From assembly GCF_000003815.2 (NCBI RefSeq), contig NC_049979.1:6664196-6728195 (forward strand): a DNA stretch of 64,000 nucleotides, given 5' to 3'. Positions 13,101-16,100 of the stretch are shown piece after piece. The position numbers and the translations under genes are program-made. Positions within the stretch are counted from its first letter, which is position 1. The number at the start of each line of letters is the position of its first letter. The notes beneath the pieces were generated by a model, which made no database searches, was not told the origin of the DNA, and saw only the letters and a program-made list of their open reading frames with translations. Source of the stretch: Branchiostoma floridae (Eukaryota; Chordata; Leptocardii; Amphioxiformes; Branchiostomatidae).

Positions 13101-16100
13101 TGGCATGGTAGAGATTCATCAAACTCAGAGAGAAAAACTCTTTGTAGAGGAAATTAAATAAAACAGCTCAAAATATAAGTCCATCCAACATACTACACAA
13201 ATCCCAGTGCTGTAAAAGAGCCAAAATAAAGTGGCTTGGAAGAGACCAGAGAAGCAAGGCTGGATTGTTGAAGAGTTGTTGATGATCACGTGTAAGTCTG
13301 AAGACAGTCTTACAGGTATGGTCGTACTTAGATCCTGTTTACTTGGTCTGGTGTTCATGTACAATCTGTGATGGTGTGTTGTGTTATGTTTCCATGTGTA
13401 GGACAGTAGCTAAAGATGAGAACAGTACCTGGATCTCATCCATAGTGTGCACGATGAACATGTCCACCAGGTCCTCCTTGGCACCATCCATCCAGTTGTT
13501 GAATGGCTGGAAAAAAACATGAAACACATTAAGACATCTCCCTCATGTACTTCTAGCAACAAGCCATTTACTCCTTTGTTTTGCCCAACTGTGTTTTGAA
13601 TTGATAACTTTCACTCATCTTAATCAAGGATGTTATATAGGAATACAGTACACATGTTTAAAAACCTGCTCTCCAATGATATCTTCAGTGTTCACTGTTG
13701 AAAGGTAATGTATTCTACTAGAAACGTCTTACCGTTTCCAAAATCATATCCAGTAGCCTGAGTAATTGCGAATCTTATTACCTGGATATCTAACCTTCAT
13801 TGAAGGACACATACGCATTACGTGTTAATACTTTGTTTTGTTCTGCTCTAGTCACAAACATGTAGTAAGGATACTTACAGCTGCTCTCTTGGCGAATTCC
13901 AAATGATATTGGTCCACTCTTTCCAGATTTTCTCAGCTTCCTGTGAACAGAGCATACATGTAAACTGTTATAGAGAGTCTGCTTGTAGAAATGCTTACTT
14001 TCGAGAGTATATTCATTCAGAATCTTAAAATGAGGTTGTAAATCATTTCAGGTGATTTTCTAGTTATGGGAGATTGTAAGACCATCAAAATCAAATCCAT
14101 GGTGTGAGACCATCAATGGTAGCTCAGCAGATGCACTGATAGGTCCCAATGGACAATTGCTACCGTAAAGTTTTGCTCATAAAGAGTCAAAGTATTCATA
14201 TTACAGGCAACTGACAATTATTCATTCCTCCTAGTCCTAGGCATGAAGTTACTATTGTAGACAATGGCTTATCAATAGACACGATTCAACTTCACATGAT
14301 GTCTGTGAAATGGCCAGTACTCACATCCAGAGCATTTCTCCTCTTCTGTGTGAGGGCTCCCAATCTGTCCCACTGGTCACAGATTCGCTGAGGGGAAAAC
14401 CACACAAGTCAGCACCGATCTAAGGCAGTTAGTGTGCTTTAGAGTTGTAAATAATGAAGTGCAAACTAAGCCACAACTACGGTGTAAGCTGGGCAGAAGC
14501 AATTTTAGGGCTCAGATATCATAGAGAGAGATGATTCTGACATTTACATGTAACTCTTCTTTTTTTTAATAAGCAGTTTAGATAGTTCCCACATGCTAGA
14601 ATCTAAGGATGTAATCATGCCACAAGTCTCACAAGCAACTGTGAGGGATTCAGATGTCTGAAGCATCACTGTGGTCCTAACAGCCAAATCAATGAGAAAA
14701 TTTGAGAAATGCTTCTTGGGAAGTATACTGAGCCTTGGATTTCACCAATCATTCTAGAATAACGGGCATAGCTTGGTAATAGCTCAGCTTAATGTTTGCC
14801 ATTAGCTACAGCGTGTGTGCAGAAAGGAAAGTGAGAGAAAGTGAAAAAAAGAAAGGAACGAAAATACGAGAAAATGCATCAAATTCTAAAAGACAGAAAA
14901 GGGAGAAATGAAACCAAGCCTGTTACAAAATACCTGGCATCTAGCATTGATTGTTACAACGTCCCAGTACTCCAGATCACTGTAAAATAAGGGGGCAGAG
15001 GTGTGAACTAGGGTGGGGTCGCTCATGGTCCTCACCCCCACACCTAGGGGGTTCAGATGATTTGGGGGAGATCTGATCCCTTATAACAAGGAGGGAGGTG
15101 AAACAAAATGGGGGAGGGAGGGGTAACAAGATGAGGTGCAGGTGTCATATCCCTTCATGACACAGCAGGGTTGGAACATGATGGGATGGAGGTGATATCC
15201 CTCATTGATACACCATTACTTCAAACAGGGTGGGGCTGGATAGGAAAGGAGTAACAGGTGGCTAGGTATGTCAAGATGAAAGAAGATTTCAGGACAGAAG
15301 GGATGGTGGACAGGTGGAGAAAAAATATGGCATCCCCTCACTTCTACAAGTAGCATCCTCAACTGAGATTTGTAATTTGGTCAGTCAATGTTACTCATGT
15401 AAGTCTGTGCCTTGCATGAATAATAAAATAGAATAGAAAATAAAACTGGCTAAGTTGTTTATGTTACATCATTGCAACAAGGAAGAGAAAACTAAATCTT
15501 TCTGAAGACAAGGTGACGAAAGGCTTCTGGACATGTTAAGGTTGCTACTGTTGAGGCATGAAGGGGATGCTGTGATGTGGGTGTGCTCAGTGCCAAGTGA
15601 GTGTGATCAGTACCTGGCATCTCTCATTCACCGCATCTGCATCATTGTACTCTAAGTTACTGGAAGGAGACAAGACATGCAGTCAGCCATGCAGCGTGCG
15701 CCGGCACGTGATGTAACATTCAATGAACACGGCAAAGTAGTGCTCCAAGCACACACACAGGTTACACATGGTGCAGAGAACACACAAATATAACAAATAA
15801 CATACTGGTCATGCAACAAACGTCACCACTTTTAACTCATTCCTGTTACTTCAGTTGATTCAAATTCTTCTTTGTCTTTGCAATTAAATTTGACTGTGCC
15901 ATTGTTGGAGTGAAACATGCTTTACCTTCTGCATAGTATGTTTACCAAAAAACCACAAACAATTTTTATTGATAGTAGATACACAGCAACTCTTTTTTAT
16001 CCAAACTGATGCAAATAATCAAAAGTTATACTGGTCATAAGAACCATGCTTTGTGGCACACAAGAGCACAGAAACAACACTCTATGAAGCGGTGGCACTC

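Follow-up and report, generated by a model that had tools for sequence, protein, structure and literature searches.

Introduction

The alternative exons known in alpha-actinin genes lie in the actin-binding and the calmodulin-like domains, and the choice between EF-hand exons apparently arose in chordates, as stated in the excerpted text of a review (PMC4550062). In vertebrate ACTN1 and ACTN4, the same excerpt describes the EF-hand exons (NM/SM, or 19a/19b) as tandem alternatives whose use is tissue-regulated, and RBFOX, CELF, and PTB proteins act on this choice; in vertebrate alpha-actinin, RBFOX1 together with a CELF protein favours the exon used in muscle (PMC5840707, available in part). 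Drosophila Actn carries alternative exons in the actin-binding domain. Exon 8 of vertebrate alpha-actinin is an alternative exon of that domain as well. The rod between these regions is usually seen as a constant spacer, with the ends of the molecule tuned by splicing.

Two described switches come closest in their regulation to what we propose here. In FGFR2, Fox represses one of the exclusive exons 8/9 via UGCAUG in the preceding intron, and in egl-15 of Caenorhabditis elegans, Fox represses one of the exclusive exons 5A/5B, and the other is used (PMC2880598, in its excerpted text). In general, RBFOX bound upstream of an exon promotes skipping, according to the available part of a review (PMC5840707).

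We analysed a window of 64,000 nt of Branchiostoma floridae DNA (contig NC_049979.1; positions below count from the first letter of the window). A sequence-only reading of this DNA had named the CH2 and EF-hand regions as sites of alternative actinin exons and had proposed a pair in the rod. Both known kinds of pair occur in this gene too.

Results

Gene model and domain content

The gene lies on the minus strand, and the listed exons are separated by 26 introns, every one of the GT-AG type.

41164 (start codon) to 7169 (end of stop codon), minus strand: alpha-actinin gene model with 24 exon positions, three of them paired
Exon positions with a tandem pair: 6a/6b in the CH2 domain, 13A/13B in the rod, 22a/22b in the first EF hand
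13879-13940, minus strand: exon E15, 62 nt where 63 are expected, encoding a 21-residue segment whose frame breaks at a run of A

When the protein was cut into three pieces and scanned with Pfam, two CH stretches were found, two plus two Spectrin stretches in the rod, and EF-hand_1 together with EFhand_Ca_insen in the C-terminal part, and the top PDB matches of the CH2, rod, and EF queries were all actinins. Judged by these domains and matches, the gene is a member of the alpha-actinin (ACTN) family, as the sequence-only reading had it, despite the one base short in E15. The frame of that exon requires one more base than the window contains; nearby AG and GT sites, inspected by eye, did not restore a full-length match, and the missing base probably reflects either polymorphism or an error in the assembly.

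According to the excerpted review, invertebrates generally have one alpha-actinin gene (PMC4550062), and by this general statement the gene may be the only one of this animal. A DNA search of its own assembly (513,431,437 bases in 431 contigs; counts are lower bounds) with an 801-bp piece that carries 13A and 13B gave at least one place, which is the window itself, and none other among the matches listed. No relative was found in prokaryote or viral contigs, which were scanned as possible animal contamination.

A frame-breaking exon pair in the second spectrin repeat

The rod pair consists of two adjacent 46-nt exons with an intervening intron of 634 nt, each with cag before and gta after it.

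16700..16609, minus strand: upstream exon E12, 30 residues plus 2 nt, phase 2 at its end
15659..15614, minus strand: exon 13A, 46 nt, 15-residue product
14979..14934, minus strand: exon 13B, 46 nt, 15-residue product
14387..14325, minus strand: downstream exon E14, 21 residues, phase 0 at its start

The 3' end of E12 reads GAG TTA AA, followed by gtaagt, and the codon AAT (Asn) is completed by the first base of either 13A or 13B. Each exon begins in phase 2 and ends in phase 0, at a codon boundary before E14, so that the pair shows equal lengths, the same entry and exit phases, and an AG and a GT of its own for each member. If both are included, a TGA arises at the first codon of 13B, and if both are skipped, the frame shifts; because both or neither breaks the frame, either one or the other has to link E12 to E14. 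The coordinates, boundaries, common phase and splice sites, and 15-residue translations agree exactly with those of the sequence-only reading, and its claim that double inclusion disrupts the frame holds as well. From this anatomy, the two exons would be used in a mutually exclusive manner.

Tandem exons with frame-incompatible lengths are a usual setting for exclusivity that is enforced by competing RNA structures (docking/selector sites) or by exons that crowd each other sterically, and the rod pair could in principle be of this type. However, when each pairing of the three local introns was shuffled 20 times, 14, 4, and 11 shuffles gave duplexes as strong as the best intron-intron duplexes, and an RNA-structure-guided exon cluster was rejected on this ground. 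By the usual rule on branch-point distance, a spacer of 634 nt is too long for steric hindrance. As the spacer has this length, all introns are GT-AG, and the duplexes are no better than those of shuffles, there is no sign of either kind of exclusion, and we regard such an explanation as extremely improbable.

Pfam gives two Spectrin matches in the piece from E9 to E14, and the segment encoded by 13A or 13B falls within the second (PF00435, residues 109-212). Both products align gap-free to spectrin repeat 2 in actinins of solved structure (1sjj and 1hci), and with either exon, the length of the repeat is exactly that of vertebrate actinins in a 27-residue comparison. The location in spectrin repeat 2 that had been proposed is upheld by this match and by the alignment to the solved rods. 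In our alignments 1hci represents ACTN2, and 1sjj is taken by us to be the chick protein of the ACTN1 type. By the usual reading of a spectrin repeat, the segment would run from the last part of helix B through the B-C loop into the initial turns of helix C, and would lie on the side of repeat 2 toward repeat 1. A choice between 13A and 13B would swap this loop region of repeat 2 without any change in length, which might tune the rod or its partner-binding face, as the sequence-only reading had suggested.

Homology and age of the rod exons

13A and 13B are identical at 8 of 15 residues and 28 of 46 bases. When the 50 open AG-46-GT stretches of the sense-strand introns, 13B included, were scored against 13A with BLOSUM62, 13B reached 43 and the runner-up 14, and none of 300 Markov-resampled intron sets attained 43, the best score being 25. 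The homology of the two exons, which had also been part of the earlier claim, is thus beyond chance. A third copy was absent from the local introns, where the best other peptide scores 15.

The two exons agree at 10, 11, and 6 of 15 first, second, and third codon positions, respectively. In simulations of a neutral copy with 18 substitutions, an open frame and at least 8 of 15 residues were retained in about 1.2-1.3% of cases, and the frame together with all seven residues that are common to ACTN1, ACTN2, 13A, and 13B in 2-3.5 per 100,000, the seven-residue set having been drawn from the same data that it tests. The intron flanks showed no residual similarity: comparison of 300 nt gave scores of 17 upstream and 19 downstream, against a shuffle median of 18 from 200 shuffles of the upstream flanks only. 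Since no similarity is left over in the flanks, the duplication looks old, and by these comparisons, both exons look old and under selection.

The splice sites of the two exons differ in strength, with acceptor scores of 8.4 for 13A and 0.3 for 13B, and donor scores of 6.8 and 5.1; of 26 acceptors and 26 donors, 13B ranks in the bottom three in either case. Sites as weak as these would suit a pair in which one copy, most likely 13B, is decaying and seldom used, leaving effectively one exon. A decaying 13B would, however, hardly be expected to retain an open frame, its AG and GT ends, and all seven residues that 13A shares with ACTN1 and ACTN2, a combination of frame and residues that a neutral copy keeps only at the very low rate given above, and 13B even fits the ACTN1 segment better than 13A does (52 versus 46). 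We thus consider it very unlikely that the second exon is on its way to being lost.

The exon pairs of the CH2 domain and the EF hand

The two other pairs flank the rod pair within the same gene.

21811..21892, minus strand: exon 6a of the CH2 pair, 82 nt, 27 residues
21244..21325, minus strand: exon 6b of the CH2 pair, 82 nt, 27 residues
8878..8958, minus strand: exon 22a of the EF-hand pair, 81 nt
8545..8625, minus strand: exon 22b of the EF-hand pair, 81 nt, with a complete calcium loop

Exons 6a and 6b are the counterpart of the Drosophila Actn exons, which belong to the same family and differ from 13A/13B in the domain concerned. By their length of 82 nt each, they break the frame if doubled. 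6b is identical to ACTN2 at 24 of 27 residues, versus 19 of 27 for 6a, and to ACTN1 at 22 of 27, versus 20 of 27 for 6a.

Exons 22a and 22b are the amphioxus' own counterpart of the vertebrate EF-hand pair, and with 81 nt each, their double inclusion stays in frame. The rod pair differs from the vertebrate 19a/19b exons in lying in the rod, in its exon length of 46 nt, and in breaking the frame if doubled. Read together with the end of E21, the loop of 22a departs from the ligand pattern of EF loops, since positions 3, 5, and 12 are devoid of the usual ligands. 22b aligns gap-free to the ACTN1 structure 2n8y, which we take to be the non-muscle form. The calcium-loop exon of the EF pair is the second of the two, and it is also the one that bears TGCATG.

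UGCAUG sites upstream of one exon of each pair

Beyond the finding of the sequence-only reading, we observed UGCAUG, the RBFOX-type site, upstream of 13A and, in the CH2 and EF-hand pairs likewise, upstream of one member.

15688..15693, minus strand: TGCATG copy 1 before 13A, 34-29 nt upstream
15676..15681, minus strand: TGCATG copy 2 before 13A, 22-17 nt upstream
15682..15686, minus strand: branch-point-like site CTGAC with its A at -24, exactly between the two TGCATG copies
21897..21923, minus strand: three TGCATG copies before 6a (21923, 21909, 21902), spanning 27 nt directly upstream, by the 3' splice site
8655..8660, minus strand: TGCATG before 22b, 35-30 nt upstream

The CTGAC is the only yTNAy at the usual branch-point distance before 13A; the last 120 nt contain a single further yTNAy, TTCAT at -65. 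Because the two TGCATG copies bracket it, a bound protein could cover the branch point of 13A. As in the Fox switch of FGFR2, the UGCAUG sites, at -34 and -22, are in the intron before the exon, here close to the one that is putatively repressed; the gene is a different one.

Among all hexamers, TGCATG ranks first in the last 40 and in the last 60 nt before the six paired exons, with 3+2+1 copies. Within 40 nt it is found on one exon per pair, namely 6a, 13A, and 22b, and it is absent from the last 40 nt before 6b, 13B, 22a, and all 20 constitutive exons, none of which has even GCATG within 100 nt upstream. Counted by exon, TGCATG precedes 3 of the 6 paired exons and none of the 20 constitutive ones (Fisher p 0.0077). 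Dinucleotide shuffling of the flanks, repeated 4000 times, produced some hexamer reaching 6 copies in 1.9% of cases, some hexamer of any count that was present on one exon per pair and free of constitutive exons in 9.2%, and a hexamer with this distribution and at least 6 copies in none. These tests are not blind, since TGCATG had caught our eye ahead of the unbiased survey and the limit of 40 nt was set afterwards.

The motif is also oriented within the gene. In the introns (7169-41164), there are 32 sense and 10 antisense copies (p 0.0009), and 26 versus 10 (p 0.011) when the six copies at the paired exons are removed; outside the first intron the counts are 19 and 2. In the DNA upstream of the alpha-actinin gene, the counts on these two strands are 17 and 13.

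An alternative reading accepts 13A/13B as a real exclusive pair and takes UGCAUG to be incidental, with CELF/PTB-type factors or the strength of the splice sites deciding between the exons. CELF and PTB do act on vertebrate actinin exons (PMC5840707, available in part), the last 100 nt before 13A and before 22a contain UGUGUG repeats, GTGTGT outranks TGCATG at 100 nt (7 versus 6), and the other clusters of intronic TGCATG, four further close pairs, are distant from exons. UGUGUG is, however, also found within 100 nt upstream of the constitutive exons E5, E12, and E14, and such a reading leaves the top rank of TGCATG at 40 and 60 nt, its placement on one exon per pair, and its absence from all 20 constitutive exons to coincidence. 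We consider control by other factors unlikely, though it deserves to be taken seriously.

A rule by which the RBFOX-blocked exon of a pair has the stronger splice sites does not hold throughout, and this counts against the proposed role of RBFOX: it fails for the CH2 pair, in which 6b is stronger than 6a at both splice sites, and is mixed for the EF pair, in which 22b has the better acceptor and 22a the better donor.

Discussion

Our data suggest that 13A and 13B go back to an old tandem duplication and are kept as mutually exclusive exons, and that RBFOX would block 13A in coordination with the choices at the CH2 and EF-hand pairs, an account that we consider moderately probable. In the proposed mechanism, 13A, having the stronger splice sites, would be the default exon. 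RBFOX on the two UGCAUG sites to either side of the branch-point-like site, where it could cover the branch point, would block 13A, and the weaker 13B would then be used in RBFOX-rich cells. The sites before 6a and 22b would tie the CH2 and EF-hand choices to that of the rod, and the protein of RBFOX-high cells (muscle or nerve) would be 6b+13B+22a, that of RBFOX-low cells 6a+13A+22b.

That 6b+13B+22a may be the muscle form is consistent with two observations, namely that the motif-free 6b is the exon nearest to ACTN2 and that the motif-bearing 22b is the calcium-loop form; against this assignment, 6b is also nearer to ACTN1 than 6a is. An assignment of 13A and 13B to ACTN1 and ACTN2 types by their residues was rejected as not decisive: at the A/D position, 13B resembles ACTN1 and 13A is more like ACTN2, opposite to the guess based on the motif. 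Two literature observations count against a role of RBFOX. TGCATG is overrepresented downstream of human micro-exons, according to the available part of the respective study (PMC4317164), whereas the sites described here are upstream, and the main text of a paper on Rbfox1 in fly muscle mentions neither actinin nor Actn (PMC8742874).

A wider reading can be offered only tentatively, as a possibility about which we have considerable doubt. In it, a non-vertebrate chordate with one alpha-actinin gene would use an RBFOX switch to set the actin-binding domain, rod repeat 2, and the calcium hand together, thereby producing muscle and non-muscle proteins, and vertebrates would later have split this task over several ACTN genes and lost the rod switch. 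If the length-preserving swap in the loop of repeat 2 is true, the rod would also be adjusted by cell type. The common placement of UGCAUG would allow a direct test of whether a single factor governs three exon choices that lie far apart in one molecule, and also of whether splicing does here what gene duplication did in vertebrates.

Our literature search gave no title or abstract start on an actinin rod pair among the matches listed, and no paper that joins spectrin repeat, BC loop, and AB loop with actinin; Lek et al. 2010 lay outside this search. That work is said to be a survey of actinin gene structure and splicing and would be the likeliest to list the 13A/13B pair. Surveys of tandem exons list actinins of vertebrates, flies, and worms, and the rod pair is unmentioned in their excerpted texts (PMC9741552, PMC4465641, PMC5740500) and in that of the actinin review (PMC4550062); an amphioxus study names ACTN in its list of supplementary figures, in the part available (PMC5888912). 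With a reservation for Lek et al. 2010 and for public gene models, the rod pair would be new among actinin exon pairs.

Other features of the window

Upstream of the actinin gene, on the opposite strand, an open frame at 52740-53129 (plus strand) is DPY30-like, with a Dpy-30 motif (PF05186, E 9.7e-21). A further open frame, at 58458-58895 (minus strand), is of the TPR type, and we take it to resemble a TTC27 homologue. Related translated strings (.IQHGVFRIT..) occur at 11344-11694 (minus strand) and at 49698-50120 (both strands), and these are probably a dispersed repeat.
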